Shown in pieces: positions 4,183 through 52,297 of a stretch of 64,000 nt of DNA. The position numbers were made by a program, and so were the translations under genes. Position 1 is the stretch's first letter; each line of letters opens with the position of its first letter. Under the pieces are notes generated by a model. The model was not told the DNA's origin and searched no databases. It saw nothing but the letters and a program-made list of their open reading frames with translations. The DNA is from a virus: positions 1 through 64,000 of the IMG/VR virus record IMGVR_UViG_3300037234_000438; one strand, written 5' to 3'.

Positions 4183-4378
4183 ATGCAAAGAAACGGCAGA
4201 AGTGGTGATTATGTGCGGTAAGTGTATACAGGGATTGCTCGGCGTGGTAGGGTCTGCAAAGCCAATGTCGAAGCAGGAATTAAGCTTTCACGGCCTTACC
4301 GATAGGCAGGTCAAGAAGTCTCGGAAAATGGGCCGCAGAACCCCTGGAAACATAAATAATTCCTTGGTGTGGGCATGA
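4175..4378 (+). CDS. Small Cys-motif protein (67 aa)
   Basis: I place the start at the ATG at 4175, which has GGAGG 7 nt upstream. The N-terminus carries CKC and MCGKC (residues 2-4 and about 14-18), a likely zinc knuckle, followed by a basic tail. The 3' part contains the second AACCCCTGGAA motif. No family is recognised. Confidence 0.5.
   Translation: MCKCKETAEVVIMCGKCIQGLLGVVGSAKPMSKQELSFHGLTDRQVKKSRKMGRRTPGNINNSLVWA
4339..4349 (+). repeat. AACCCCTGGAA dispersed motif, copy 2
   Basis: An exact copy of the 11-mer found at 2104 and 5405, here inside the end of the preceding reading frame and about 20 nt upstream of the next start. An AT-rich segment follows it, as at the other sites. Confidence 0.4.
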
Positions 4379-4656
4379 GGCTGGTATTAGAGCTGAACAG
4401 CGAGGAGTTGATTGCGTTAAATACAAGCATTATTGTTGAAATGTGGGAGCATGTTGGTGGGGCTAAGGCTTGTGGAATCACGAAGCAAAAGTATCTTGCC
4501 TCGTTTAACGAGAAACAGAGGAAAACTCTTTCTGCCTACTATCCACGCTTCTACGATTGGCATTTAAGGCGTGGTGTTCCACAACGGTCTGTTTTCAGGA
4601 AGATAGAAACCATTGACTTAATTAAGCGTGCCGTTAGCTTCTTCGCAACGATTTAA
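4369..4656 (+). CDS. Hypothetical protein (95 aa)
   Basis: The likely start is GTG at 4369 or ATG at 4375; neither has a strong ribosome site. The product is helical and basic at its C-terminus. It shows no recognised domain. Confidence 0.5.
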   Translation: MGMRLVLELNSEELIALNTSIIVEMWEHVGGAKACGITKQKYLASFNEKQRKTLSAYYPRFYDWHLRRGVPQRSVFRKIETIDLIKRAVSFFATI

Positions 4657-4669
4657 TGGGAGCTCAAGC

Positions 4670-5086
4670 ATGAAAGACATTAACTTTCTTGAAGTTATGA
4701 TTAGAGCTGTCGAGAAGAGCCACCAAGCAGAGAAGCCCTTAAGTGACAAGCTATGTAAGAATTGCGGCAGTCTCCCAGCTCCAGAGATACGCTGGATGCC
4801 TCCGGAGGCATTAGGGCTTGAGCCCAGTGAGGACGATAGGCCGATAAAGATTACCACCTACCACTGTCACTATTGGGATGCTGTCAGAAAGAGTCACTAT
4901 AAAACCTCCATCGGTATTACAACTAAACCAGAGAGCAGCTGTGCTTACTTCTGCGAGAGGAAGGCTATTGTAGCGACTGAGAAGAGAGGTAGTGACTGGC
5001 TCGATATCATGGCCGATAAGCGACAGCAAACAAAGATCCAGAGGCAGGCATCTCTTGCTAACTTCAAGGCAGTTAAGGTTCTTTAG
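4670..5086 (+). CDS. Hypothetical Cys-containing protein (138 aa)
   Basis: The ATG at 4670 is chosen because GGGAG lies 8 nt upstream. The protein has a CKNC pair at about residues 25-28, a CHY segment near 65 and a CAYFC segment near 90, which could together bind zinc. The C-terminal third is basic and helical. No family is recognised. Confidence 0.55.
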   Translation: MKDINFLEVMIRAVEKSHQAEKPLSDKLCKNCGSLPAPEIRWMPPEALGLEPSEDDRPIKITTYHCHYWDAVRKSHYKTSIGITTKPESSCAYFCERKAIVATEKRGSDWLDIMADKRQQTKIQRQASLANFKAVKVL

Positions 5087-5100
5087 GAGGGCAACATACG

Positions 5101-5331
5101 ATGGATTGGGGTAAGCGTAAGATAGAAATGCAAGAACACGTGAAGATATTAAAACAGGCGGGCTTTACGTGTATCCAAGGTAATTTTAACTTAACTATCA
5201 CTCCAAAAAGGGCAGATCCGAGAGATTTAGTGACAACAATACGACGCACGGACAACAATGCCGTCCTTCAAAGCAATGTCACCTTGAAAGGCTTAGGGGC
5301 TTTGGCCTGCGAATTAAACATAAACGCCTAG
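5101..5331 (+). CDS. Hypothetical protein (76 aa)
   Basis: The start has AGGAGG upstream. The product has a helix followed by beta-rich sequence. Nothing else can be said from sequence. Confidence 0.55.
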   Translation: MDWGKRKIEMQEHVKILKQAGFTCIQGNFNLTITPKRADPRDLVTTIRRTDNNAVLQSNVTLKGLGALACELNINA

Positions 5332-5513
5332 TTCGGCATGCGCAAATATCGCTTAAAAGTCCGTGCGCATTTGCCCGGAAAGTTAATAAAAAATGAGGCG
5401 GTGCAACCCCTGGAATAAAAAGATAAACTGAGGGCTGCAACGGTAAACTTTAGAGTGCCTGAGTCGCACCCTTTTTGGGATATTAAAATAACGCTAAATC
5501 GAAGGAGGTATAA
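5332..5513. other. Intergenic region with two dispersed motifs
   Basis: This 182-nt gap holds a GCATGCG-type motif (5337-5343), the third AACCCCTGGAA motif (5405-5415) followed by an AT-rich run, and a GTGC/GCAC hairpin followed by CTTTTT near 5456-5476 that could be a weak terminator. The AAGGAGG of the next gene closes the region. Confidence 0.4.
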
Positions 5514-5882
5514 GTGTTTGTTTTATTTAGAGATAATTGTACCGGCGACACAGGAAAAGCAGAGGTTGGCGAGATTGTGCTGAAAACACATAAGGGAGAG
5601 CACAAATATCATCTCTATTTTAGTGCCGCTATTTACACTTCTTATCGTGGAAATGACGTGATAATGGAGAGCGGTCAACTCCAAGATAAAATCCTGAAGA
5701 TGTTCCCAGACGACAAGAAAGTTAAGAGGATGATTAAGCTCTGGAAGAAGTATCACATAAAAAACGTATATCCTGGCGAACTAAGGTATTTAAAACTCAA
5801 ACTGTTCTTGCGTGAGTTGATAGGGACGTTTCTTTCAGATATGCATAAAGCTATTGAGCGGGGAGGACTTGATGATGGCTGA
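5514..5882 (+). CDS. Hypothetical protein (122 aa)
   Basis: The GTG start follows GAAGGAGGT. The N-terminal half looks beta-rich and the C-terminal half is helical with many lysines. Its last codons overlap the next gene. No family is recognised. Confidence 0.6.
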   Translation: MFVLFRDNCTGDTGKAEVGEIVLKTHKGEHKYHLYFSAAIYTSYRGNDVIMESGQLQDKILKMFPDDKKVKRMIKLWKKYHIKNVYPGELRYLKLKLFLRELIGTFLSDMHKAIERGGLDDG

Positions 5883-6174
5883 AATAATTGAGATCATAAA
5901 AATTACAAGGTCGGATAATGACAACGCTGTGATAGATAGAAAAGTATTTAGCGTAACGGTTGAAGATTTTCAGCAGATATTAACAGCCGCCAGCCTATTC
6001 AACGGCAAGGAGTTGGAAGCTGAGGAGAAAACACCAATTGGCGAACTCGTTACCTGGGATGACGAACGTATAGGCGTTACTAAGCTGGACGACAAAATAG
6101 AAAACTTGAAGTTCTTAAATGAGCAATGCGACCTTGTTAGACGTGCCCGCTTAGCCCTTGGGGTGAAAATATGA
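5872..6174 (+). CDS. Hypothetical protein (100 aa)
   Basis: The ATG at 5872 (or 5875) is chosen because GGGAGG lies 5-8 nt upstream; it overlaps the end of the previous gene. The product is acidic with a helical C-terminus. The stop overlaps the next start (ATGA). Confidence 0.55.
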   Translation: MMAEIIEIIKITRSDNDNAVIDRKVFSVTVEDFQQILTAASLFNGKELEAEEKTPIGELVTWDDERIGVTKLDDKIENLKFLNEQCDLVRRARLALGVKI

Positions 6175-6404
6175 GAGCAGAATGCCCGAAGGAACTCGCC
6201 GTCAATAGGTTCAATAAGGCGTGGAGAGAACACGAAGCCGCCGGTGATGCCATCGACAAAGCATTTCGCCCTGGCCTTGAAGAGCTTCTAAAACAAGGCA
6301 AGTTTCAAGAGGCTCGCGAATACTTAAGGCCGATTCCGATAGAGTCAGTCAGAAAAGTTCTTATGTTTCGAGAAATTATTCTGAGAGAGAAGGAGGGACA
6401 ATGA
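6171..6404 (+). CDS. Hypothetical protein (77 aa)
   Basis: Start and stop both overlap their neighbours by 4 nt (ATGA), so the gene sits in a tightly coupled string. The product is helical and charged, with no recognised domain. Confidence 0.55.
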   Translation: MRAECPKELAVNRFNKAWREHEAAGDAIDKAFRPGLEELLKQGKFQEAREYLRPIPIESVRKVLMFREIILREKEGQ

Positions 6405-6733
6405 GGAAGCCAGGAATAAAGAAAGAGATAATTATTAAGACTGATAATACAATGCTATCAAGGTTGGTTGTTCATATAGGCACTCAACGTGCCCTTAAAC
6501 ATGTCGCTAAGGAGAGCGGAAGATATTGCACTAGTACCTTTGGGCTCAGAGATAAAGGCGCACAGCTGCCTCTTGAAGTGGCTCTGTATGTAAGTCCTTG
6601 CTATGACATTCTGGAAGTAAAAGAACACCTTGAGAGCCTCATCCCTAAATTACCACCTTCCAGAAGAGAGCCGCCAGTATTGACGTGGGATGAAATGCTC
6701 AAGCAAAACGCAGGGCCAATCGGGGCTTCATGA
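6401..6733 (+). CDS. Hypothetical protein (110 aa)
   Basis: The gene is coupled by ATGA overlaps on both sides, with GGAGGG just before the start. The basic N-terminus is followed by mixed alpha/beta sequence. No family is recognised. Confidence 0.55.
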   Translation: MRKPGIKKEIIIKTDNTMLSRLVVHIGTQRALKHVAKESGRYCTSTFGLRDKGAQLPLEVALYVSPCYDILEVKEHLESLIPKLPPSRREPPVLTWDEMLKQNAGPIGAS

Positions 6734-10296: not shown

Positions 10297-10572
10297 ATGA
10301 GCATCTACTTTGGAGACAAGCATGAGAGGTTCCTTGTAAAGAATATAGACGTAACCTCGTTCAACGACAATCTGACTATATCTATATGCCCACCATCGCT
10401 AACGGGTGGGCTCACGCCAAAATATATCACTGGCACAGAAAATGATCTTGTGGAGTTATGTAGGAAGATTCTATCGAAAATACACTATTCACAGTTAGAG
10501 GTAAGCGTCGCAATGGCAACAATAAAATCAAATGTCCAAGAGGGCGAAGGAGGAAAAGATGTCAAAAAGTGA
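10297..10572 (+). CDS. Hypothetical protein (91 aa)
   Basis: An ATG preceded by AGGAGG opens a small alpha/beta protein whose end overlaps the MoxR-like gene by 14 nt. It is likely translated with it. No family is recognised. Confidence 0.6.
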   Translation: MSIYFGDKHERFLVKNIDVTSFNDNLTISICPPSLTGGLTPKYITGTENDLVELCRKILSKIHYSQLEVSVAMATIKSNVQEGEGGKDVKK

Positions 10573-11629
10573 GTTATACGAAGTCACTGTGCGTGAGAGC
10601 AAGGAGATTATGAAGGCCTGCTACAAGACCGATACTCCGGTTATTTTACGAGGAGGGCCTGGGATCGGCAAAACGAGTGGTTGTTCGCAGGCTGCAAAAG
10701 AGCTGAAGGTAGGCTGCAAAATAGAAGAAGGGTCGTCTCTCGACATTACCGATGTAAGGGGAGTACAAGTTCCCAATCTACAGGAGAAGACTGCCTTCTT
10801 CACAAGGCCACCTATCTTTCCTGATGCTGAGGTCGACGGAGCCGAGGGGTTTCTGTTAATCGATGAGGCCGCTGGCTGCATGGGTTCGTTACAGAAGGCC
10901 CTGCAGTCAATGTTTGACCTGAGGCGGATAGGAGTACATAAGTTACCAGAAGGCTGGCTTCCTGTGGCCACTGGCAATAGGGCTACAGACGATGCCGGAG
11001 CGTTCAATCTCTTGTCAACCTTTCAGGACAGGATGGTCTGTTTAAACATAAAGTCCTCCTTTCAAGAGTGGAAAGAAGACTTCGCGTTCCCCAACGGAGT
11101 CCATCACGACATAATAAGCTATTTGAATTTCTCCAAAAAGTCATTCAACACCTTTAGTGACAGAAAGAGAAATTCCGGCAACAAAGGCTTTGCTTCACCA
11201 AGAACCTACGCTATGGCATCCAGGTTTCTACATCTCAACCTCACTGAAGCCGTCCTGTTTCCCGTTTTAGTTGGACTTCTAGGGGAAGGTATAGCCTATG
11301 AGCTTACAGCCCACAGAAAGCTACATAAGGATCTTCCTGATATAGACAAAATCTACGCCGGCAAAACTGACGCTGTTCCTAAGGAGCCTTCTGCTTTATA
11401 TGTTTTAAGTGGAGCCCTTTATGGCTATTTAAGCAACCTCCCTAAAGGCCTGAAGCTGTCAGTAGCTATCGAAAGGCTCTTGGAATACTCACGACTTCTT
11501 CCGAGAGAGTTTGCTGTACTCACCATGAAAGACGTAATGGTGACATACAGGAAAGACGTAGAGAGGAGCAGGCAGTTCCCATCGTGGGCCAAGGAGTACA
11601 GATCTTTAATTCTTCCATCTGGAGACTAG
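10559..11629 (+). CDS. MoxR-like AAA+ ATPase
   Basis: This 356-residue protein is an AAA+ ATPase of the MoxR type. Walker A is GGPGIGKT (residues 32-39) and Walker B is FLLIDEA (about 97-103). An arginine-bearing segment (LLSTFQDRMVCLN) follows near 155. MoxR ATPases act as chaperones that insert metals or remodel complexes, usually with a VWA-domain partner, and such a partner is the next gene. The ATG at 10559 has AAGGAGG upstream. The gene lies at the end of a long run of coupled genes. In phages this pair is often joined by a DUF3150 protein; here that gene lies 7 kb downstream, beyond the reverse transcriptase array. Confidence 0.85.
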   Translation: MSKSELYEVTVRESKEIMKACYKTDTPVILRGGPGIGKTSGCSQAAKELKVGCKIEEGSSLDITDVRGVQVPNLQEKTAFFTRPPIFPDAEVDGAEGFLLIDEAAGCMGSLQKALQSMFDLRRIGVHKLPEGWLPVATGNRATDDAGAFNLLSTFQDRMVCLNIKSSFQEWKEDFAFPNGVHHDIISYLNFSKKSFNTFSDRKRNSGNKGFASPRTYAMASRFLHLNLTEAVLFPVLVGLLGEGIAYELTAHRKLHKDLPDIDKIYAGKTDAVPKEPSALYVLSGALYGYLSNLPKGLKLSVAIERLLEYSRLLPREFAVLTMKDVMVTYRKDVERSRQFPSWAKEYRSLILPSGD

Positions 11630-11631
11630 CC

Positions 11632-12873
11632 ATGCCCTTTAGTGAAGCGCAAGACAAAATAGATATAGCGAAGGCCCGGTTAATAATAGACCATCCCTTC
11701 CTCGCAAGTATCGCCATGAGACTTAAGTGGATTGAGGACGAGAAAGCCATCAACCCCCTTAACGGCCAGCCTAAGATGATGGTGAATATAAAGGAGTTGA
11801 GATATCATCCTGACCTTGTGGCATCAATGAAGCAATCTGTAGTGCTGGGTTCCGTCTGCCACGAAATCATGCACCTCGTGTATCAGCACGTCCTCGACTG
11901 GCGAAGTGGCGAAGGTAAGGTGAGTATCATCTGGACCATGGCCCAAGAACAAGTCGTTAACGATGCGGTGTTGAATATGTTTAACGGAGGCAAATTCAGG
12001 TCAGCACTCCCAGAAGGAGTTATCTACGACGAAGGAGCCAGGGGGATGTACACTGAGGAGGCATACGATTATTTTCTCAATAAATACCCTGAAGCAAAAG
12101 ACAATCAGGAATCTCTTGCTAACATGTTAGGTGGAGACAGTGAGGATGGTGAAGACTCTCCTCTTATGAAGCTCGCCAAAGAAGTAGTTGAGAAAATGGT
12201 TGATCATCACGAAGCCGGGGAAGGCACTCTGACGGAACAAGAGCGTACTCAGCAAGAAAGAGAGATTAAGGCGCTGGTTGCCGAGGCTGCTGCGTGTGCA
12301 AAAGATGCTGGTAAAATGCCGGCTGGGTTGGAGAGGTATATTGATGAGTTTCTTGAGGCCAAAATACCATGGCAGCAGCACCTCGCCGAATTCACATGCT
12401 CTATGGCGAGGGACGATTTTAGTTTCAGAAGACCTGCACGTAAATATCTATATTCCGGGATTATATCGCCGTCAATACGCTCAGAACTGCTAGAGGTTGC
12501 CATTGCTTTCGACCTTAGTGGAAGTGTCGGCAGGGAAGAACAGATCGCAATGTACACTGAATTCAGAGGCATACTTGCTGCCTTTCCGAGCTACGTGATC
12601 CACTTGATGAGCTTTGACTATGTGATACAGAACTTCCAGACGATAACAACTGGGCAGGAAGCTGATCTCGAGGCTTTATTTAAGGGGGGAGGGGGAACAG
12701 CCTTCGAACCAATATTCTCCAAGCTTGCCGAGGAAGGCATAACTCCCAACTGTCTGATAATTTTGACCGATGGATATGCCTCATATAGTTTTCCAGAACC
12801 GGAATACCCTGTTTTGTGGACGCTGACTGAGAATCATAGCGAGCCCCCGTGGGGCAAAATTGCGCTCATGTAG
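11632..12873 (+). CDS. Metallopeptidase-like / VWA-domain protein (DUF2201 type)
   Basis: The 413-residue protein joins an N-terminal putative zinc-peptidase domain, with HEIMH at residues 77-81 and a further His at 86, to a C-terminal von Willebrand A domain. The metal-ion site of the VWA domain is visible as DLSGS (294-298), a GGGGT loop near 350 and LTDG (378-381). This is the arrangement of the DUF2201 families, which pair with MoxR ATPases. A charged, helical linker (about 165-240) joins the two domains. The start at 11632 is 2 nt after the stop of the ATPase gene. The complex may mature or remodel a metal-bearing target, which is not known. The stop is followed within 11 nt by the first retron-like element. 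Confidence 0.85.
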   Translation: MPFSEAQDKIDIAKARLIIDHPFLASIAMRLKWIEDEKAINPLNGQPKMMVNIKELRYHPDLVASMKQSVVLGSVCHEIMHLVYQHVLDWRSGEGKVSIIWTMAQEQVVNDAVLNMFNGGKFRSALPEGVIYDEGARGMYTEEAYDYFLNKYPEAKDNQESLANMLGGDSEDGEDSPLMKLAKEVVEKMVDHHEAGEGTLTEQERTQQEREIKALVAEAAACAKDAGKMPAGLERYIDEFLEAKIPWQQHLAEFTCSMARDDFSFRRPARKYLYSGIISPSIRSELLEVAIAFDLSGSVGREEQIAMYTEFRGILAAFPSYVIHLMSFDYVIQNFQTITTGQEADLEALFKGGGGTAFEPIFSKLAEEGITPNCLIILTDGYASYSFPEPEYPVLWTLTENHSEPPWGKIALM

Positions 12874-12883
12874 GAACAATAAA

Positions 12884-13007
12884 GTCTATGGTCTTTGGGG
12901 CACTGAATCGGTGCCTGTGAGTAAAGCTACCTGCGGCTTAGTAGGCAATCGATATACACTATATATCGGGGACTGGGCTATGCTGAAGTATAGCCATTGG
13001 CATAGAC
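12884..13007 (+). ncRNA. Retron-like msr-msd element A
   Basis: Terminal inverted repeat GTCTATG (12884-12890) pairs with CATAGAC (13001-13007). GGTC closes the 5' arm and is followed by a 5-bp hairpin, GGCAC/GTGCC (12899-12903 and 12911-12915), with loop TGAATCG. Two more hairpins follow: 7 bp at 12950-12956/12962-12968 and 6 bp at 12976-12981/12990-12995. The element is 124 nt long and sits 10 nt after the VWA gene. An AAAGGAGGT ribosome site follows its 3' arm. The layout equals a retron RNA (a1, branching G, msr hairpin, msd hairpins, a2). Confidence 0.7.
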
Positions 13008-13019
13008 GAAAGGAGGTAA

Positions 13020-13058
13020 ATGTCGTTAGGTCAAAAAATAAAAGCATCTGCGGTCTAA
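13020..13058 (+). CDS. Possible 12-aa leader peptide
   Basis: An AAAGGAGGTAA ribosome site of the same form as that of the reverse transcriptase gene precedes an ATG and 12 codons (MSLGQKIKASAV). The frame ends inside the 5' part of element B. It could be a leader peptide whose translation unfolds element B, or the remnant of a lost gene. Confidence 0.35.
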   Translation: MSLGQKIKASAV

Positions 13059-13186
13059 GACGGAGTGCTGATTCGGCACTTTATTGAAAAAACAGTAGGC
13101 TCTAAACGTTGCACTAGGCGTTGCATTAAGTTTATAGCGACAAACTTAAAACAACCGCTCTCGCGAAGGAGAATTCCAAGGCGCAG
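13048..13186 (+). ncRNA. Retron-like msr-msd element B
   Basis: A short terminal repeat, CTGCG (13048-13052) with CGCAG (13182-13186), encloses GGTC and a 5-bp hairpin AGTGC/GCACT (13064-13068 and 13076-13080) with loop TGATTCG. Further on, an 8-bp hairpin TTAAGTTT/AAACTTAA lies near 13126-13149. The terminal stem is the shortest of the nine, so this copy could be degraded. The RT ribosome site follows its 3' end directly. Confidence 0.55.
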
Positions 13187-13199
13187 GAAAGGAGGTAAG

Positions 13200-14051
13200 A
13201 TGTCAAAAGAATACAAGATTTGGAAGATACCGAAAAGGCGGGGCGGTTCCAGAACCATCGAAAGCCCGAACGATGAGCTGAAGGCAGCTCAAAGAGAATC
13301 TATCGGCGAGCTACAGAAGAAATTGAAAATATCTCCCTTTGCATATGCTTTTCAGCCTTACAAAAGTATCGCATTATGCGCAATGGCTCACGTTGGCAAA
13401 GAGTGGATTGGATGTATCGATGTCAAAGATTTTTTTCCAAGCATTACCATTGAGAATTTTATGGAACACTCTCGCACAACTGATGCTATTAAGACGTGCG
13501 GCGATAGCATGAATTTCGAGAAAGACCTAAGACAACACTTCCACGATTTTAACGATGGGAAGGGTTGCCGATTGCCACAAGGGGCTCCCGGATCGCCATT
13601 GCTTTCAAACGCATACCTCCTTAAGGCTGACTGGCGGTTCGCTTGGCTCGCATACGCAAAAGGCGTGGCTTATAATCGCTACGCAGACGACTTAATTTTT
13701 TCCGGCCCCAACAGAGACGATATAGTCAAGCTAATCGGAGTCATCACTTCAATCCTCAAAAAGGATTACGATTTAAAGATCAATAAAAAGAAGACGAAGA
13801 TAATGCATCGTTCAAGGAGACAGTTGGTGGTAGGTTTATGCGTAAATGAAAAACTTAATCTCAAACGAGAGTACAGAAAAAATCTCAGAGCCAGAAAACA
13901 TCAAGAGATGTTGAAGCACGGCAAATACTCCCTGGAAACAAAAGGTATGATGGCATTCGAGGAGATGGTTCGTAATAACCAAAAGACTACTCATAGTAGT
14001 ATCGATATAATCAGTTCAATCATGATAGCAAAAGAACTTTCTGGAGGATAA
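13200..14051 (+). CDS. Retron-type reverse transcriptase
   Basis: This 283-residue protein is a complete reverse transcriptase of the retron class. Visible motifs are IDVKDFFPS (73-81, first catalytic Asp), LPQGAPGSPLLSN (125-137), YADD (161-164, catalytic Asp pair) and KINKKKTKIM (193-202). Two retron-specific regions are present in altered form: CAMAH (60-64) where retrons have NAxxH, and VVGLCVN (210-216) where they have VTG. The C-terminal helical thumb is basic. I start at the ATG at 13200 with AAAGGAGG upstream; a longer frame from 13065 would run through element B. Retron RTs prime on the 2'-OH of a G in a structured RNA and make msDNA. Nine candidate RNAs flank this gene. There is no maturase or endonuclease domain, and no template/variable repeat pair as in diversity-generating elements. 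Confidence 0.9.
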   Translation: MSKEYKIWKIPKRRGGSRTIESPNDELKAAQRESIGELQKKLKISPFAYAFQPYKSIALCAMAHVGKEWIGCIDVKDFFPSITIENFMEHSRTTDAIKTCGDSMNFEKDLRQHFHDFNDGKGCRLPQGAPGSPLLSNAYLLKADWRFAWLAYAKGVAYNRYADDLIFSGPNRDDIVKLIGVITSILKKDYDLKINKKKTKIMHRSRRQLVVGLCVNEKLNLKREYRKNLRARKHQEMLKHGKYSLETKGMMAFEEMVRNNQKTTHSSIDIISSIMIAKELSGG

Positions 14052-14052
14052 T

Positions 14053-14218
14053 GTTTGTAGGTCGTAATAGCGACGGTGGATCGCCGTCTTGTTGGAAGAA
14101 CTTCCGCCGACTAATCCCGTGCTGCACACGGGTAGCAGTTTACCCCCCTGAACAATCGCTACCATTATTGAAGGGTTTCAACTCAGGTAGCGATTATCCT
14201 GTGGGCAAAGCTACAAAC
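14053..14218 (+). ncRNA. Retron-like msr-msd element C
   Basis: A perfect 8-bp terminal repeat, GTTTGTAG (14053-14060) and CTACAAAC (14211-14218), encloses GGTC, the hairpin GACGG/CCGTC (14072-14076 and 14084-14088) with loop TGGATCG, a GGAAG/CTTCC hairpin, a CCCGTG/CACGGG hairpin, and a long msd-like stem of 10 perfect pairs (14154-14163 with 14186-14195). The element starts 1 nt after the RT stop codon. Confidence 0.8.
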
Positions 14219-14369
14219 TTATAGGTCGTAAGGACGATGATTCGTCGTCATGGAAAAAAACTACACTGGGCTAAAGGGCCCTTGATCATGATTCAATGGC
14301 CCTTGCAAGGTCTGGGCGTGCAGATAAATCGAAAACATAATTTATCATGCAGCACAGAAGCTATAAGTT
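14216..14369 (+). ncRNA. Retron-like msr-msd element D
   Basis: A perfect 9-bp terminal repeat, AACTTATAG (14216-14224) and CTATAAGTT (14361-14369), encloses GGTC, the hairpin GACGA/TCGTC (14233-14237 and 14245-14249) with loop TGATTCG, a 7-bp GC-rich stem (14274-14280 with 14298-14304), and an 11-bp msd-like stem with one bulge (14319-14329 with 14340-14351). Its first 3 nt are shared with the 3' arm of element C. Confidence 0.8.
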
Positions 14370-14374
14370 GAGAC

Positions 14375-14519
14375 GGTTTGTAGGTCACAAGGGCAGTGAT
14401 TCGCTGTCTTGTCGCAGTGGTTAAGGGTATCCAATAGCCGCCAAAGCCGACGGCTAAAGATATTGTCACAAAATCAACCGAAATTTTCGATCGACATTGT
14501 GCCTTCAAAGCTACAAACC
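14375..14519 (+). ncRNA. Retron-like msr-msd element E
   Basis: A perfect 9-bp terminal repeat, GGTTTGTAG (14375-14383) and CTACAAACC (14511-14519), encloses GGTC and the hairpin GGCAG/CTGTC (14392-14396 and 14404-14408, one G-U pair) with loop TGATTCG. Downstream are an AGCCG/CGGCT hairpin and a CACAA/TTGTG stem. The terminal repeat is nearly that of element C, whereas the interior is unrelated. Confidence 0.8.
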
Positions 14520-14520
14520 A

Positions 14521-14701
14521 ACGGCAATGGGTCATATATTCGATGCTGATTCGGCATTGAGAGAGAAATATTAACTGGGACTAACCTTGTAGCCCGCAGG
14601 CTGCGTCAATTCTGCACCGAAAAGAAGAAGGCTGAAGTCTTTTCTTTTCGTTTTGGCACTCCTTGCCTGCGGGCTACAGAAAGTTTAATAAGCCATGCCG
14701 T
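14521..14701 (+). ncRNA. Retron-like msr-msd element F
   Basis: The terminal repeat ACGGCAATGG (14521-14530) pairs with CCATGCCGT (14693-14701) with one bulged base. It encloses GGTC and the hairpin GATGC/GCATT (14542-14546 and 14554-14558) with loop TGATTCG. The msd-like part is the longest perfect stem of the array: 13 bp, 14588-14600 with 14666-14678, topped by a second CGAAAAG/CTTTTCG stem. An AAGGAGG for the next gene follows the 3' arm. Confidence 0.8.
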
Positions 14702-14711
14702 AAGGAGGAAG

Positions 14712-14951
14712 ATGGATAGGCGAGGAATGCTGATCAAGTTGCTTTCGTTTTGCACTGAGGAGGAGTGTGATATGTTTGCGAGAGTATTTCGCGACTATAG
14801 AGCACCTCTCAGATTGAAGCTTACAGCAGAGACAACTGTTAAGGAATTAGACCCTAGCGACCTCAGGCAAGCGATACTCTTAGTTAGGCGCACTATAAAA
14901 AAGAAATCCGAACTCGAACAAGCAATGATAAGAACTTTAATGAAAGAATAA
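14712..14951 (+). CDS. Hypothetical protein within the retron array (79 aa)
   Basis: The ATG follows AAGGAGG placed directly after element F, and the TAA stop is part of the 5' arm of element G. The product is helical, with alternating Arg/Lys and Glu residues, and has no signal or membrane segment. No family is recognised. Its location between two retron-like RNAs, a few hundred bases from the RT, makes it a candidate accessory protein for the retron system, for example an RNA or msDNA binder. Confidence 0.65.
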   Translation: MDRRGMLIKLLSFCTEEECDMFARVFRDYRAPLRLKLTAETTVKELDPSDLRQAILLVRRTIKKKSELEQAMIRTLMKE

Positions 14952-15099
14952 GCTATAGGTCTGTGTTGGGCGACGTTTCGTTGTCTTAGGATAATGTTTA
15001 TGATGGCTAAAGCCTGGCGAGCTCCAGGCTCGATAATGACGCCGTCGTGATTATGAAGCCGGGGGTAGGGCGCGCACAACGGCGTCATGCTATAGCTTA
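14949..15099 (+). ncRNA. Retron-like msr-msd element G
   Basis: A perfect 10-bp terminal repeat, TAAGCTATAG (14949-14958) and CTATAGCTTA (15090-15099), encloses GGTC and the hairpin GGCGA/TTGTC (14969-14973 and 14981-14985, two G-U pairs) with loop CGTTTCG. A GCCTGG/CCAGGC hairpin (near 15012-15029) and an 8-bp stem (15038-15045 with 15079-15086) follow. The 5' arm includes the stop codon of the 79-aa gene. Confidence 0.8.
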
Positions 15100-15100
15100 A

Positions 15101-15195
15101 TGTGTGGGTCTTATGGATGTTGCTTCGACATCTGGAAGAAATATTGGCATGGACTATGCGTTTTCACCCACAGGCTGAAAGCCTAAAGCCACACA
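15101..15195 (+). ncRNA. Retron-like msr-msd element H
   Basis: The shortest element (95 nt). TGTGTGG (15101-15107) pairs with CCACACA (15189-15195) around GGTC, the hairpin GATGT/ACATC (15116-15120 and 15128-15132) with loop TGCTTCG, a GCAT/ATGC hairpin and an AGGC/GCCT hairpin. A TGTGGGT/ACCCACA alternative pairing also exists. It begins 1 nt after element G and ends 16 nt before the next start codon. Confidence 0.7.
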
Positions 15196-15211
15196 ACAAA
15201 ATGGAGGCAAT

Positions 15212-15403
15212 GTGACCGACAAGGAACTGTATGATAAGATAAAGCCTCAGATGGAGGGCTGTGACGGAGGTATTGTCTGTGAGAGTCTGATGTACTACGA
15301 AAAGACTGGAGGCTTTAGGTTGATGCAACGAGGAGTGCTTCTGTATTACTTAAAAGTTCCACAAGTGTTTAGTATGGGAGGCCAAGATGACGGAGAAAAG
15401 TAA
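15212..15403 (+). CDS. Hypothetical protein (63 aa)
   Basis: A GTG start has TGGAGG upstream, placed directly after element H. The product is a small alpha/beta protein with two Cys in the first third. Its end overlaps the next gene. No family is recognised. Confidence 0.55.
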   Translation: MTDKELYDKIKPQMEGCDGGIVCESLMYYEKTGGFRLMQRGVLLYYLKVPQVFSMGGQDDGEK

Positions 15404-15671
15404 GGACTGTGGGCACGACGGGCCGAAAGGTATGTCGTGCAGGGTATGTGCCTCACCGGAGAAGCCATCGGTAACAGAGGTAAGGAAAGTAATAGTGATT
15501 GACGATTGTTCCAAGTGTCCGCTTACAGGCGGATGCAAGCCGTGGAAGGACCTTAGCGGAAAGCAAAAAGCAATTCTACTATTTGGCGTTGGTGTCGGGA
15601 AGTTTATTTTGAAAGGCTGCCCGTTGCCAGATAGTGATACGGAGCTGGAAGCGTTTGCCGGGTTAGATTAG
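15387..15671 (+). CDS. Cys-rich hypothetical protein (94 aa)
   Basis: The ATG has GGGAGG upstream and overlaps the previous gene. CGHD, CRVC (near residue 18), CSKC and GGCKPW segments suggest one or two zinc sites, and a hydrophobic helix (ILLFGVGVGKFIL) follows at about residues 63-75. No family is recognised. Confidence 0.6.
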   Translation: MTEKSKDCGHDGPKGMSCRVCASPEKPSVTEVRKVIVIDDCSKCPLTGGCKPWKDLSGKQKAILLFGVGVGKFILKGCPLPDSDTELEAFAGLD

Positions 15672-15710
15672 ACAAGGACAACGAAAAACTTAACCAAAGG
15701 AGACATTAGT

Positions 15711-16010
15711 ATGGAATACGAAATAGGAGCCACAGCTTGTTACATAAACGATTATTCCTTTACTCACATAGCCGACATACCTGTCGAAGTGGCAGTTGAA
15801 TGGGTGAAGAAGGTTACTCCAGAAACAAGAATGAGCGCAACGGGAAATGTGCAGGCGAAAGACTTGACGGTTGGCGGCGATCCCGATACGGATGCAAATG
15901 TAAACGGATGGCTTAATAAGTTATTCGTACTGATTGCTTGCGATCATGGCAAATGGGTGGCTCTCTATAATCACGACGGTAGATTTTCGATTAGAGACAA
16001 AGCGATATGA
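15711..16010 (+). CDS. Hypothetical protein (99 aa)
   Basis: The start follows AAAGGAG. The protein has mixed alpha/beta character and no recognised motif. Its stop overlaps the next start (ATGA). Confidence 0.6.
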   Translation: MEYEIGATACYINDYSFTHIADIPVEVAVEWVKKVTPETRMSATGNVQAKDLTVGGDPDTDANVNGWLNKLFVLIACDHGKWVALYNHDGRFSIRDKAI

Positions 16011-16177
16011 TAACAACTCAGAAGTTTAAACGTGGCAGACGCTTAGTTGTAAAACAAACGGAATACGGCATCTGGCCGGCAGTGGTGATGCTCATGCACA
16101 GGGAAGCTATGTGTTACGTCATATCTGTTATGGGGCACTTAAGGTGGGTGGCTCCGGTCGTGGTGTTGGCTAATTAA
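16007..16177 (+). CDS. Small hypothetical protein (56 aa)
   Basis: The ATG overlaps the previous stop. The short basic N-terminus is followed by a hydrophobic, Met/Val-rich stretch (AVVMLM, CYVISVMG, VAPVVVLAN) that looks like a small beta barrel or membrane-associated chain. Element I follows 8 nt after the stop. Confidence 0.5.
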   Translation: MITTQKFKRGRRLVVKQTEYGIWPAVVMLMHREAMCYVISVMGHLRWVAPVVVLAN

Positions 16178-16185
16178 TATTTAAT

Positions 16186-16402
16186 CCTTATGGTCAAAGC
16201 AACTGAGCTGGTGTTTCGCCAGCCTAAGAATAATGTGATCTCGGACTAAGCCTTCGAGCACGGAAAAGCTAACTCCGTTCAATCTTTTACGGGCTCGAGA
16301 TCAATAAATAAGGGTTTACTGAATATCGAATATCACGCTTCGTTTCTGCTGCGCTTCGCGGACTTAGAAATTCCATATTAATTAAACCCTTATCGCATAA
16401 GG
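16186..16402 (+). ncRNA. Retron-like msr-msd element I
   Basis: The longest element (217 nt). CCTTATG (16186-16192) pairs with CATAAGG (16396-16402) around GGTC and the hairpin GCTGG/CCAGC (16207-16211 and 16219-16223) with loop TGTTTCG. The interior holds a GATCTCG/CGAGATC stem, an ACGGA/TCCGT hairpin and a large ATAAGGGTTT/AAACCCTTAT 10-bp stem. The 3' arm contains part of the AAGGAG ribosome site of the next gene. It lies 1 kb from element H, behind four small genes. Confidence 0.75.
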
Positions 16403-16409
16403 AGATACT

Positions 16410-17633: not shown

Positions 17634-18614
17634 ATGGAAAGAGACAGAAAACAAATTGATGCGACAACGCTTACGCTGGTTGCGCTGAATGAGATTGGGA
17701 AGAAGCTCAATGTGATCGACGAGAAAGTGACGGTAGCGAAAGCTACGCTACCGGTAAGCGATGCGTTGATTCTATTTCGAAAGAAGATTGACAAATCCCA
17801 TAAATGCCCAAGGAATCTATATCCCCTGCTAGACAAGTTGCGAGAATCGTTTTCTGATCGAGACTGCGTAACGCTTACGAGCTATGACCTGGAGGGCTTT
17901 ATTGATGAGAACTGGGCAGGCTCAGCTAAGAGTACGATAAATGCGAGACTTGCCCAGCTTAGCCTATTCTTTAATTTTTGTATCAAGGAGACCAGAAAGA
18001 GAGGGTTTGAGCCTTGGCATAATCCGGTGGAACTCATCGATAGACAGAAGAGAGTACCGTTAAAGGAGAATAAATATCTTCCCCCTGAAAAAATACGAGC
18101 ACTTCTTTATCAGTGTGACTCGGATAAAGACTGGCTGATAGTAAGCACTTTACTGTGTGGGCTGCGGAGTGGCGAGCTTCTTAAATTGAGACCAATGGAC
18201 ATATCTGGAAGAAGCCTCCGACTAATAGAACCTAAGAGCGGCAAGCGAGAAGAATTTTCTGTGGCACCAGCGCTCGTGATTAGCGAGTTCCAACTCTACA
18301 TAAATAAACATAAAATAGGTTCAAATGAAAAAATATTTGGCTGCATGTATGGAACCTCGGTAAATAAACTCGCCAGAAGAAAATCGAAGGCGATAGGTGA
18401 AGATCTAACAGCTCATAGCCTAAGAAAAATAGGATGCACGGTTTATGATAGGGCGGGAGATCATGCAATGCGTCGTTTCGTTCTTAGGCATGGCAGCGTT
18501 AAGGGGCACCTTACGTCGCTGGAGTCCAGATACGTCTCTCCTTATACTATCGATGAGGCCTGTGTTGCACAGGATAAAATTATGGTTCCGTCGTGGTTTG
18601 AGGAGGCCGACTGA
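17634..18614 (+). CDS. int: Tyrosine recombinase / phage integrase
   Basis: The 326-residue protein has a SAM-like core-binding domain (about 40-135) and a C-terminal catalytic domain. Catalytic residues can be placed: Arg178 (CGLRSGE), a Lys near 201-204 in the beta turn, His261 and Arg264 (HSLRK), His286, and the nucleophile Tyr300 (SRY). This family cuts and rejoins DNA through a 3'-phosphotyrosine link and would integrate the phage at an att site. I start at ATG 17634 (AGGAG upstream). It sits in the middle of the early region rather than at an obvious end of the genome. No attP core is identifiable. The next gene overlaps its stop. Confidence 0.9.
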   Translation: MERDRKQIDATTLTLVALNEIGKKLNVIDEKVTVAKATLPVSDALILFRKKIDKSHKCPRNLYPLLDKLRESFSDRDCVTLTSYDLEGFIDENWAGSAKSTINARLAQLSLFFNFCIKETRKRGFEPWHNPVELIDRQKRVPLKENKYLPPEKIRALLYQCDSDKDWLIVSTLLCGLRSGELLKLRPMDISGRSLRLIEPKSGKREEFSVAPALVISEFQLYINKHKIGSNEKIFGCMYGTSVNKLARRKSKAIGEDLTAHSLRKIGCTVYDRAGDHAMRRFVLRHGSVKGHLTSLESRYVSPYTIDEACVAQDKIMVPSWFEEAD

Positions 18615-47233: not shown

Positions 47234-48481
47234 TTAGACCTTGATTCTTATCCATGTCGGCCTAGTAATCTTTGGCCCACCACTAATACCTGCACCGACT
47301 TCGAGGGTGTAGGGAACTTTCTCGTCGAAGTGAGTCCAAATATATCGACCAGGGAGAGGCTTAGTCCAGCTCTGCGCCTTTACGAGGCTTGGAGTGGAGA
47401 TCCAGTTGTTAGCCATAACCCTGTCGTTAGGAACAGCTTTGATTAGAACGTACCCGTCCGTAAGGAACTGCTTGTAAACAGTCACTCTGTCGCCCACCAG
47501 ATAAGCTTTGCTGATACCCGCTGACACAGTGATAGTGTTGCCGGAAATGGAAGAGATAGTAGCCTCCTCTTCTTCTCCAATTGTGTTTCTCAGGGTAATC
47601 ACGTCTGCGGCGGTGAACTCGGAAGCGTCAGTCACTACGAGAGTAGTATCTGCGACTGGAGCAGCCTCGACGAACCTGGACTCCTCTGCGTAGATCCTAT
47701 TGTCCTTTTCCATAGTGAGGCCAGTCAAAGTGTCAAAGACCTTTTTTCTGTTAGAAGACCCCTCAACAAGCGCCGGAGAATTAGTCACCATAGTCTGCGT
47801 CGCCGTGGCGAGGTAGAATTCCTCAAGCGTATTAATGGACATGAACGCGGTCTCAGCAACAAGGCCAAGCTTGGTGGCCATGTAATTCACAGCTCCGATC
47901 ATGTCGGCAACAGGAGTTGCGGAGCCAACAGTGTGCCATACTCCGCCAGATGACCATGGAGGCGAGCTTGCCACGTCAACATAATACTTGGCGGGGATCT
48001 TTGGGTCGTAGGTATAATTTACGCCATACCTTGCTTCCGAAAACGTTCCGTCGATCAGAATCTTAGACGTCACATACTCGATGAGAGTGTTTAGTCTAAG
48101 GTCGAGGAAGTTAAGAGCCGCTGAAGCAAGCCCGTCTCCCCATAGCTTAGTAGGTACTGCTGGGTCAACAGCCTCTTGAAGAACCTGCTCTCCAAATTGA
48201 ACTGCCTCTCTCCAGTGCCCAGAAGTGTGCTCTTTGTACGAGCTTCCAGGGATGGAAATTCTCTTGTGGTCGGCGCCAAGATTAACCGGATTGGTACGCC
48301 CGAATGCTCCGTTATTGATCAGGTCGAGAAGTACTGTCTTGTCGACCTCTTTAAAGGGCAGAAAGTTGTCCGTCAGCCGGAATGCATCTGGCGCTGGCTC
48401 GAACTCATTAATAGCTGCGTCCATAATCGGCTGTCTAAAAGCCCTGGACTCGCCTAGTTTTAAAAACTCGTCACCTGTCAT
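47234..48481 (-). CDS. Major capsid protein (lambda gpE-like)
   Basis: The 415-residue protein has the fold pattern of lambda gpE-type capsid proteins: a long N-terminal arm, KRISIPGSSYKEHTSG (about 70-85), a spine helix near 125-145, and the C-terminal WTKPLPGRYIWTHFDEK strand. An extra segment at about 285-345 (EFTAADVITLRNTIGEEEEA, then ISSISGNTITVSAG) is a small beta domain not needed for the core and may be exposed on the shell. The gene follows the decoration gene and is followed by its own terminator, fitting high expression. Confidence 0.85.
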   Translation of the reverse strand: MTGDEFLKLGESRAFRQPIMDAAINEFEPAPDAFRLTDNFLPFKEVDKTVLLDLINNGAFGRTNPVNLGADHKRISIPGSSYKEHTSGHWREAVQFGEQVLQEAVDPAVPTKLWGDGLASAALNFLDLRLNTLIEYVTSKILIDGTFSEARYGVNYTYDPKIPAKYYVDVASSPPWSSGGVWHTVGSATPVADMIGAVNYMATKLGLVAETAFMSINTLEEFYLATATQTMVTNSPALVEGSSNRKKVFDTLTGLTMEKDNRIYAEESRFVEAAPVADTTLVVTDASEFTAADVITLRNTIGEEEEATISSISGNTITVSAGISKAYLVGDRVTVYKQFLTDGYVLIKAVPNDRVMANNWISTPSLVKAQSWTKPLPGRYIWTHFDEKVPYTLEVGAGISGGPKITRPTWIRIKV

Positions 48482-50677: not shown

Positions 50678-52297
50678 TTACTCCTCTTGACCTTCTTCTT
50701 TTTTGACTGGGGGTTTGCCTGTCATTGAGTCTGTCTCGCTTTCTTTTGGCGTCAGGTCTGTCGTGCCGTCCTCGATCATTCTCAAATCCTTTTCTTTGTC
50801 GTAATCTTTAATGCCAGCGGACTTCGCAGCCCTGGCATTGCTTACGCCGATACTGCTAAATCCCTTGTGGTTGTTGCCGAGATAAGCTGAGGCGATACCA
50901 GCCATCTCGCTTTCAAATTTTGTGTGGGGAGATATCACCTGTACCATTTCGCATGGCTCCACATCTTCCAGAATTTCTACTGGCTTGCCACTCGTATGGT
51001 CTATGAATTTCTTCTTGAATGTTTCGGGGAGATCTCCGACAATACTCTCTACGTGGAAGCAAAACCTCAGAAGGACGTACTTGATGAAATGCTCATTTTT
51101 GTTTTGCATATTCTCAACGTCTATTTCCAGTGGCGAGCGTGATGCTTTGGCTGAGCCATATGTTGCCCTGCCCATATCCCCTTGAAACATGTCCTGAGGT
51201 GATTGCGCACCCGCGCCCGCAATATTAAGGAGGTCCCGGTTGTCGCCATCCAATTTCGACATCTGGGGAGCTTTGACATCATAGTCAAGGCCTGGCATCA
51301 AAAAAAGCTTTGAACCCGGAGTGATGGCTGCCGTCAAGCCGAAAGCCTTTTTCTGGTCGTCTGACATTTTTTTGAAAATATGGTAGGCAAGTTTTCCTGC
51401 TGGCGTGGAGTCGAATTTGAATACATTAGTATAGGAGGTTGCTGCTTTTTTGTGATCAAGCTGCCATTTGATTGCATTCCAATAAAGATTGATGGCCTCA
51501 AGGATTGCCACTAGGGATGAGGTGTCCCTCTCGTACTCATAAATGCCGGAAAGGTTTTTCCAATGGATAACAAATCTTCGGTAGCCGCCTATCTTATTGA
51601 AAGATCCTTTTTTCTTGATGGCCTTGGAAGTTTTGAGCGAATCTTTTTCGAGGTCCTTGAGCAACTTCTCTTTGTCTGGGGCGTAGGCTATATTGATGTC
51701 AGGGATAAGCTCTTTGTCATTGCCTCCATAATACTCATAAAAAAGAGTCTCTCCGGCATCCTCTGGGTTGGTTATGATACCGGTATCTTTCCCTTTACCG
51801 ATCCTGCCTGGCTCCAAAGCTCTGATCGTGGCCTTGCCTTCCTCATTGAAGGCGATCAATAGAAATAGCTCTCCTTCGGCCTGCATTCGTGTGATCCAGC
51901 CTGTTATTCTGAAGAAGAGTTGATTCCTCTGTGAAAACCAAAGATCTTTGATTGATTGATGTATACGGTGGATTGGAGTATAGATATCAAAGCCTGCCCC
52001 TGCCGTATAATCAGACTTCGAGTTTATACTGGCGTTGACTGGGCCGAAGGTGCGGTATTTATTGTATGCTTTTTCTTGGAGGGTTCGGAATTCGGGCTTC
52101 TCTGTTTTCTTTTCCTGGCCAACCTTGGATACCTCGTCGAGAGGGCCTTCATTAAAGATCACATTAGATGCCGGATCTTGCCAATTTGACAAGGCGAAGA
52201 GCTTTAAGGATGGGTCTCCTTCCGTCATCTCGTCCCAATCTTTCTGTGAAAGGCCGTCCCTGAAGACCTCTGGTACTGTGTTTTCTTCTTCTGCCAT
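50678..52297 (-). CDS. Portal protein
   Basis: The 539-residue protein is the first gene of the structural block and lies directly before the protease, as in lambda-like heads. It has the expected wing and stem pattern: GPVNASINSKSDYTAGAGFDIY near 80-101, a long central alpha/beta region, and a helical stem followed by QSPQDMFQGDMGRATYGSAK (about 367-386). Portals form the 12-fold ring that joins head and tail and through which DNA moves. A terminase gene would normally lie just upstream, but none is present. Confidence 0.85.
   Translation of the reverse strand: MAEEENTVPEVFRDGLSQKDWDEMTEGDPSLKLFALSNWQDPASNVIFNEGPLDEVSKVGQEKKTEKPEFRTLQEKAYNKYRTFGPVNASINSKSDYTAGAGFDIYTPIHRIHQSIKDLWFSQRNQLFFRITGWITRMQAEGELFLLIAFNEEGKATIRALEPGRIGKGKDTGIITNPEDAGETLFYEYYGGNDKELIPDINIAYAPDKEKLLKDLEKDSLKTSKAIKKKGSFNKIGGYRRFVIHWKNLSGIYEYERDTSSLVAILEAINLYWNAIKWQLDHKKAATSYTNVFKFDSTPAGKLAYHIFKKMSDDQKKAFGLTAAITPGSKLFLMPGLDYDVKAPQMSKLDGDNRDLLNIAGAGAQSPQDMFQGDMGRATYGSAKASRSPLEIDVENMQNKNEHFIKYVLLRFCFHVESIVGDLPETFKKKFIDHTSGKPVEILEDVEPCEMVQVISPHTKFESEMAGIASAYLGNNHKGFSSIGVSNARAAKSAGIKDYDKEKDLRMIEDGTTDLTPKESETDSMTGKPPVKKEEGQEE

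Follow-up and report, generated by a model that had tools for sequence, protein, structure and literature searches.

Positions 12884 to 16403 of the IMG/VR virus record IMGVR_UViG_3300037234_000438 probably carry a phage retron with a single reverse transcriptase (RT) that serves nine separate noncoding RNAs (ncRNAs). Judging by the sequence, we give this reading, which concerns the architecture and not the role, a probability of about 0.84. The stretch studied, here called the window, comprises bases 1-64000 of this 79,211-bp record. Retrons normally have one RNA per RT, usually plus an effector. Here nine elements (A to I, 95-219 nt), all on the + strand and confined to intergenic gaps, surround a single RT gene, just as had been claimed in the original prediction, made from the sequence alone. 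By every sequence test available these elements are retron ncRNAs, and the interpretation as a multi-RNA retron is supported by the retron family of the RT, by covariation and by the match to the msr of retron Ec86.

Layout of the Nine Elements

The elements were located as follows, with the arms (a1 and a2), the msr hairpin and the score in the covariance model described below.

12884..13007, + strand: element A ncRNA; a1 12884-12890 (GTCTATG), GGTC at 12890, msr hairpin 12899-12915 with loop TGAATCG, a2 13001-13007; 34.4 bits
13047..13187, + strand: element B ncRNA; a1 13047-13052, msr hairpin 13064-13080 with loop TGATTCG, a2 13182-13187; 35.1 bits
14053..14218, + strand: element C ncRNA; a1 14053-14060, msr hairpin 14072-14088 with loop TGGATCG, a2 14211-14218; 36.5 bits
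14216..14369, + strand: element D ncRNA; a1 14216-14224, msr hairpin 14233-14249 with loop TGATTCG, a2 14361-14369; 39 bits
14375..14519, + strand: element E ncRNA; a1 14375-14383, msr hairpin 14392-14408 with loop TGATTCG, a2 14511-14519; 37.6 bits
14521..14701, + strand: element F ncRNA; bulged arms 14521-14530 and 14693-14701, msr hairpin 14542-14558 with loop TGATTCG; 31.6 bits
14949..15099, + strand: element G ncRNA; a1 14949-14958, msr hairpin 14969-14985 with loop CGTTTCG, a2 15090-15099; 31.9 bits
15101..15195, + strand: element H ncRNA, the shortest; a1 15101-15107, msr hairpin 15116-15132 with loop TGCTTCG, a2 15189-15195; 35.7 bits
16185..16403, + strand: element I ncRNA, the longest; a1 16185-16192, msr hairpin 16207-16223 with loop TGTTTCG, a2 16396-16403; 31.5 bits

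Elements A and B precede the RT gene and C to F follow it directly; a 79-aa open reading frame (ORF) then separates F from G and H, and three more small ORFs separate H from I. B occupies the canonical place of a retron RNA, shortly before the ribosome-binding site of the RT. The two arms of every element are complementary and private to it. GGTC, invariant across the nine, marks the inner end of the 5' arm and is followed by a hairpin of 5 bp whose 7-nt loop has the form YGNNTCG. The GGTC and all nine loop sequences are exactly those that had been predicted. The hairpin, whose loop ends in TCG, is placed 9-15 nt past the start of GGTC, and in 8 of the 9 elements a GRCT(A/T)A-type motif begins 17-20 nt past it. 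An A-rich (A)AAGC directly precedes a2 in most elements. The arms are perfect or contain wobble pairs, over 6-10 bp, in eight elements. It was also possible to see that a1 of D overlaps a2 of C by 3 nt, that F has an outer msd stem of 15 perfect bp (fold z -5.5) and that I carries two large hairpins on the msd side. No sequence similarity links the cores of the nine elements; D and E alone are recognisably alike, and that only over a1 and msr.

Covariation and Covariance Model Searches

With a strict version of the motif, surrogate genomes (Markov, same dinucleotide make-up) contained 0.017 motifs per 79-kb strand, against 9 on the + strand and 0 on the - strand of the phage. Each of the five pairs of the msr hairpin shows changes in both partners, pairing holds in 45 of 45 cells and there are 16 two-sided changes; none of 500 shuffles was as good, and sliding the partner strands destroyed the pairing. 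Considering this covariation and its loss on sliding, selection acts on the structure of the hairpin. When Ec86 and two phage relatives were added, 60 of 60 cells were paired, with 22 two-sided changes. In the arms, 95% of the cells were paired with their own partner versus 59% with swapped partners (0/20,000 shuffles), and six of the seven inner positions show several pair types across the nine elements. The arm lengths, compared with other positions of the genome, gave 9e-9 as the combined P, even when F was given a poor score. The full-length fold z of the elements ranged from -1.5 to -5.5. For the region after the msr, z was -2.0 to -4.9 in C, D, F, G, and I, which have a clear long msd hairpin.

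A covariance model, R1, was trained on the nine elements alone. In the window it gave nine matches at 31-39 bits, and the next best reached 14.4 bits; this candidate tenth element, at 34269, was rejected, having no GGTC-anchored arm. Run on retron Ec86 of E. coli C, which it had not seen, R1 matched the proven msr with E=2e-4, and both its GGTC and its TGTTTCG hairpin were aligned. Run further on 169 sequences, almost all of them loci of distant retron RTs, the model gave 28 weak matches. Of these, 27 were on the RT strand, and 16 lay upstream of the RT at a distance of at most 1 kb, against an expectation of about 1. The structural alignment on which the original prediction had staked its case therefore holds, with covarying hairpin and arms, and the model that it proposed building recovers the Ec86 msr and falls upstream of unrelated retron RTs. 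No Rfam family matched these RNAs in the window. The consensus as a DNA pattern was also searched over 2.9 million viral contigs, resulting in 51 single-hit stretches, and the top six scores were contigs with the Ec86 RT gene.

Across 161 retron loci, the 5-bp hairpin with a YGNNTCG loop was found 86 times on the RT strand versus 28 times on the opposite one. Many retron groups have this hairpin as a general feature of their msr.

The Reverse Transcriptase

13200..14051, + strand: retron-type RT, 283 aa, YADD, short N terminus; AGGAGG ribosome-binding site upstream

The translation contains the catalytic core NRYADDLIFSG, with the YADD active site intact. Among the PADLOC retron models the RT matched RT_XIII (2.7e-58) and RT_II-A (4.9e-54). 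By sequence, the best chains of the PDB were those of the retron Ec86 RT, and retron chains scored far above maturases. The predicted fold had a mean predicted local distance difference test score (pLDDT) of 72 and its top PDB matches were retron RTs. By sequence and predicted fold, the enzyme is a genuine retron RT. The msr stem-loop is bound by region Y of retron RTs, and in known systems nothing beyond RT and msr is needed for the production of multicopy single-stranded DNA (msDNA) (PMC6868368).

Proposed Working and Predicted msDNAs

The RT would recognise the GTC and the hairpin (loop YGNNUCG in the RNA) common to all nine RNAs. Priming would occur from the 2'-OH of a G beside the a1/a2 duplex. 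A branching G after a1 had been predicted, and an invariant G does stand there, in the context GGTC; of its two G residues the second is the likelier priming base, since two phage relatives, L010 and L011 (see below), read AGTC at this position. The template would be copied from a2 inward, with a stop near the conserved GRCTAA, and the product would be nine branched msDNAs with like ends and unrelated hairpin cores. Taken from the base before a2 back to the GRCTAA motif, the predicted complementary DNAs are 37-152 nt long, with 5'-CTTT or similar at one end in most of them and TTAGYC-3' or similar at the other.

In the region 12.5-16.8 kb we found no promoter-like sites, versus 7.3 expected from shuffles, and no terminator-like sites on the + strand, so the RT and the nine elements are probably transcribed together as one RNA. 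The elements were also considered as Rho-independent terminators or promoters, and this was rejected, as none was detected on the + strand.

Several points weigh against the interpretation as a nine-RNA retron. The msDNAs of this locus are predictions. Terminal inverted repeats of 5-10 bp had been predicted and arms are indeed present in all nine elements, but those of F (ACGGCA-A-TGG pairing with CCATGCCGT) have one bulged base and those of B measure only 5-6 bp. The region after the msr in A, B, E, and H is barely more folded than shuffles (z -0.6 to -1.2). The priming context is GGTC instead of the usual TAGC, region X of the RT reads CAMAH instead of NAXXH and region Y reads VVG instead of VTG, each of the latter two differing at one position. 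Moreover, no close relative of the phage was found in viral, genome, phage or plasmid collections, and the closest phage relatives of the RT, with one RNA each or none found, limit the interpretation. Regarding the signatures, NAXXH and VTG are each kept in 14 of 16 proven retrons while the others deviate at similar positions, and CAGA and ACGC are known as further priming contexts (PMC6868368). NAXXH and VTG are thus not strictly defining; the three signature details are altered here, yet they also vary among proven retrons.

Relatives and Other Multi-Element Loci

The closest RTs, 41-49% identical, were found in three phage contigs of 119-195 kb, referred to as L010, L011, and L012. Together with the RT of the window they form a clade supported by a Shimodaira-Hasegawa-like approximate likelihood ratio test value of 95. 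L010 (IMGVR_UViG_3300033388_005265) and L011 (3300033153_008203), with RTs 45-49% identical to that of the window, have exactly one matching RNA each, located just upstream of the RT like element B, and no such RNA was found in L012. Taking into account the position of this single RNA, B is likely the ancestral copy and the remaining eight an expansion. L010 and L011 resemble the window in the short N terminus of the RT, the GTC and hairpin, the RNA directly upstream of the RT and the lack of a known retron effector; they differ in having one RNA each, an 8-nt loop and a weak HNH-like gene upstream. This gene (L010:5344-5790 and L011:5159-5605) encodes a conserved 148-aa protein, weakly HNH/ZorE-like, directly upstream of the ncRNA and RT. 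It is a possible effector, absent from the window.

Three other loci have several msr-type hairpins beside one retron RT, as in the window, with RTs only distantly related to it. In L014 (IMGVR_UViG_3300037247_001602), a 94-kb phage contig, an array at 4331-5551 contains four msr-type hairpins upstream of a retron-type RT of 430 aa with a cysteine-rich N-terminal part. Nine copies of AGGAAAGGTAGGC, at steps of 53-93 nt plus one of 337 nt, separate unrelated hairpins. L014 thus shares with the window many unrelated hairpins, several msr-type hairpins and one retron RT, and differs in that the repeat GGAAAGGTAGGC stands between the hairpin cassettes. These cassettes mostly match nothing else in the L014 phage, save palindromic self-matches and one weak 19-nt match. 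Two contigs considered as further carriers of the L014 repeat, L226 and L228, were rejected: they contain runs of a 15-nt coding-type repeat (pentapeptide-like) and are not retrons. L016 (IMGVR_UViG_3300024518_006178), a 77-kb phage contig, has three msr-type hairpins at 5098-5360 upstream of an RT that is sister to that of L014. Finally, L172 (JAHDEQ010000167.1, a Saprospiraceae metagenome-assembled genome) has three tandem msr-msd copies (5703-6430), 70-95% alike, upstream of a bacterial retron RT; their msd loops are diverging, as in a young triplication.

Multi-template retrons therefore seem to arise repeatedly, the window holding the largest set of complete elements seen here. The original prediction knew of no described retron with this many RNAs, and nine complete elements are indeed the most seen, but the kind is not unique to this phage, as smaller multi-element loci exist (L014, L016, L172). 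A description of retrons with several ncRNAs, or of phage retrons, was not found in the open-access literature, subscription papers being largely outside the scope of the search. The second array, that of L014, suggests a recurring phage strategy rather than a single oddity.

The Phage and the Surroundings of the Array

Genes for a head maturation protease, a tape-measure protein, a primase/helicase, a RecT-like protein, an exonuclease, a RusA-like protein and a tyrosine recombinase were found, and from these it follows that this unclassified bacterial virus is a tailed phage. No close phage relative was reached through the DUF2201 gene, a capsid-region protein (47234-48481) or the RT, and phage records contained no match to the protein at 50678-52297.

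In the window (10532-12873), as in L012 (2964-5548), the RT comes after genes for an AAA ATPase and for a DUF2201 metallopeptidase/VWA protein. The DUF2201 gene is labelled "HNH endonuclease" by PHROG 1314, a label that Pfam does not support. The tyrosine recombinase (17634-18614, PHROG integrase) lies 1.2 kb beyond element I, the last of the array. The small ORFs between elements are the following.

14712..14951, + strand: 79-aa ORF between F and G; no PHROG, Pfam or PADLOC match
15212..16010, + strand: three small ORFs (63, 94, and 99 aa) between H and I; no significant family match, the 63-aa ORF having been searched in PHROGs only

Among the neighbours tested near the RT, no retron effector family was found in PADLOC, Pfam or PHROGs.

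Possible Roles

One RT with nine diverged, structurally intact ncRNAs opens a testable question, namely, of what use differing hairpin DNAs are to a virus. It also shows msr and msd evolving separately, as modules: the part bound by the RT stays constant, and the DNA product is free to change. In defence retrons, the complex of RT and msDNA restrains a toxin (PMC12548924). By analogy, we tentatively propose, as the most likely role, that the nine msDNAs may be a panel of decoys or mimics that, for host defence proteins (retron effectors, for example), occupy the ligands or take their place. It counts against such a role that the argument for it draws only on the absent effector, the diversity of the hairpins and analogy. 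A broader version, slightly more doubtful, is that of a phage-encoded msDNA library in which one RT and nine (or more, as in L014) fast-diverging templates would jointly disarm DNA-sensing or DNA-restrained host defences. If true, this would be a new counter-defence class that works by making DNA, the DNA counterpart of the PhiTE RNA antitoxin mimics. Sequence mimicry of the msd of other retrons was rejected, since over 2.4 Mb of loci there were only msr-hairpin matches and chance-level 14-17 mers.

Somewhat less probable again is the defence retron of a temperate prophage, whose nine msDNAs would sense different triggers and in which a small protein (79-103 aa) would be the restrained toxin. 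The tyrosine recombinase makes lysogeny possible, the majority of retrons known are effector-bearing defence systems (PMC12548924), and small ORFs without an assigned function lie between the elements. However, these ORFs resemble ordinary phage early genes, the three closest RTs reside in large phage contigs and, as described above, no retron effector family was recognised among the neighbours tested.

A natural form of recombineering, with the msDNAs as single-strand donors pasted into DNA by the RecT-like annealing protein of the phage (54928-56007, PHROG 2e-48), is unlikely, even though an exonuclease and a RusA-like resolvase are also encoded and engineered retron arrays serve just such editing. 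The longest match of the cores to the rest of the 79-kb genome was 14 nt, where background matches reach up to 15, and the cores match nothing in E. coli, plasmid or phage collections. Self-targeting by the cores was rejected on the same figures. RecT-like genes are, besides, common in phages that lack retrons.

Two alternatives would replace the nine-RNA retron itself, and both are very improbable. If only B worked as a retron RNA and the other eight were decaying duplicates, the canonical place of B alone upstream of the RT would be explained, and tandem msr-msd duplication does occur (Retron-Nex1, PMC6868368; L172); but the arms and hairpins differ in sequence and yet stay paired through compensatory changes, the GRCTAA spacing is kept, the cores are unrelated and not decayed copies, and B itself has the weakest unbulged arms. 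A role as RNA alone (processing sites, RNA regulators or RNA decoys), in which the elements would bind the RT without being reverse transcribed, would suit their embedding in an apparent single long transcript and the overlapping arms of C and D, but not the precise a1-G-msr-msd-a2 layout, the conserved priming position and boundary motif, or the intact YADD active site of the RT.

Comparison with Known Systems

Other classes of element were considered and rejected. A diversity-generating retroelement would require a template and variable repeat pair, and no near-repeat of the elements was found elsewhere in the genome; the RT groups with those of retrons and is not of the type of such elements. 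A group II intron does not agree with the lack of an Rfam match in the window or with the scores of the RT, far better with retron chains than with maturases. An integron cassette array would have attC sites with GTTRRRY cores, which arms such as GTTTGTAG do not fit, and the nearby tyrosine recombinase matches generic phage integrase models instead of an integron integrase. As to the tripartite anti-phage retron, which includes an associated effector, the search in PADLOC, Pfam and PHROGs among the neighbours tested gave none. We therefore file the locus as a retron variant and not as a tripartite defence retron, because the effector was sought and not found.

The closest known system is Retron-Eco1 (Ec86, type II-A), which the window resembles in the family and fold of the RT, in an msr hairpin with a TGTTTCG loop, in a GGTC about 11 nt upstream of that hairpin and in an ncRNA just upstream of the RT, as element B. 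Ec86 differs in having one ncRNA and an effector gene, in its TAGC priming context and in its GGTC, which lies in the loop of an extra hairpin and does not adjoin a1. Retron-Nex1 (Ne160) of Nannocystis exedens has several duplicated msr and msd repeats (PMC6868368); no RT lies within a kilobase of them, and their published description is that of duplicates rather than of a set of different msDNAs grouped about one RT. The expanded noncoding array of pseudo-ToxI repeats in phage PhiTE mimics an antitoxin and defeats a host suicide system (PMC3475682). It offers an analogy for the proposed decoy role, with the difference that it is RNA only, made of near-identical repeats and without an RT.

The locus thus departs from the scheme of one RT, one ncRNA and one effector in all but the RT, since its one RT is accompanied by nine ncRNAs, diverged but with their structure intact, and by no effector that could be recognised. 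Gonzalez-Delgado et al. (2024, cited in PMC12548924) have reportedly engineered a retron template array for multi-site editing, as the title of their work has it. Such arrays are made for genome editing, whereas that of the window is natural, and it would be a natural parallel to them, with nine natural templates for one compact RT of 283 aa.

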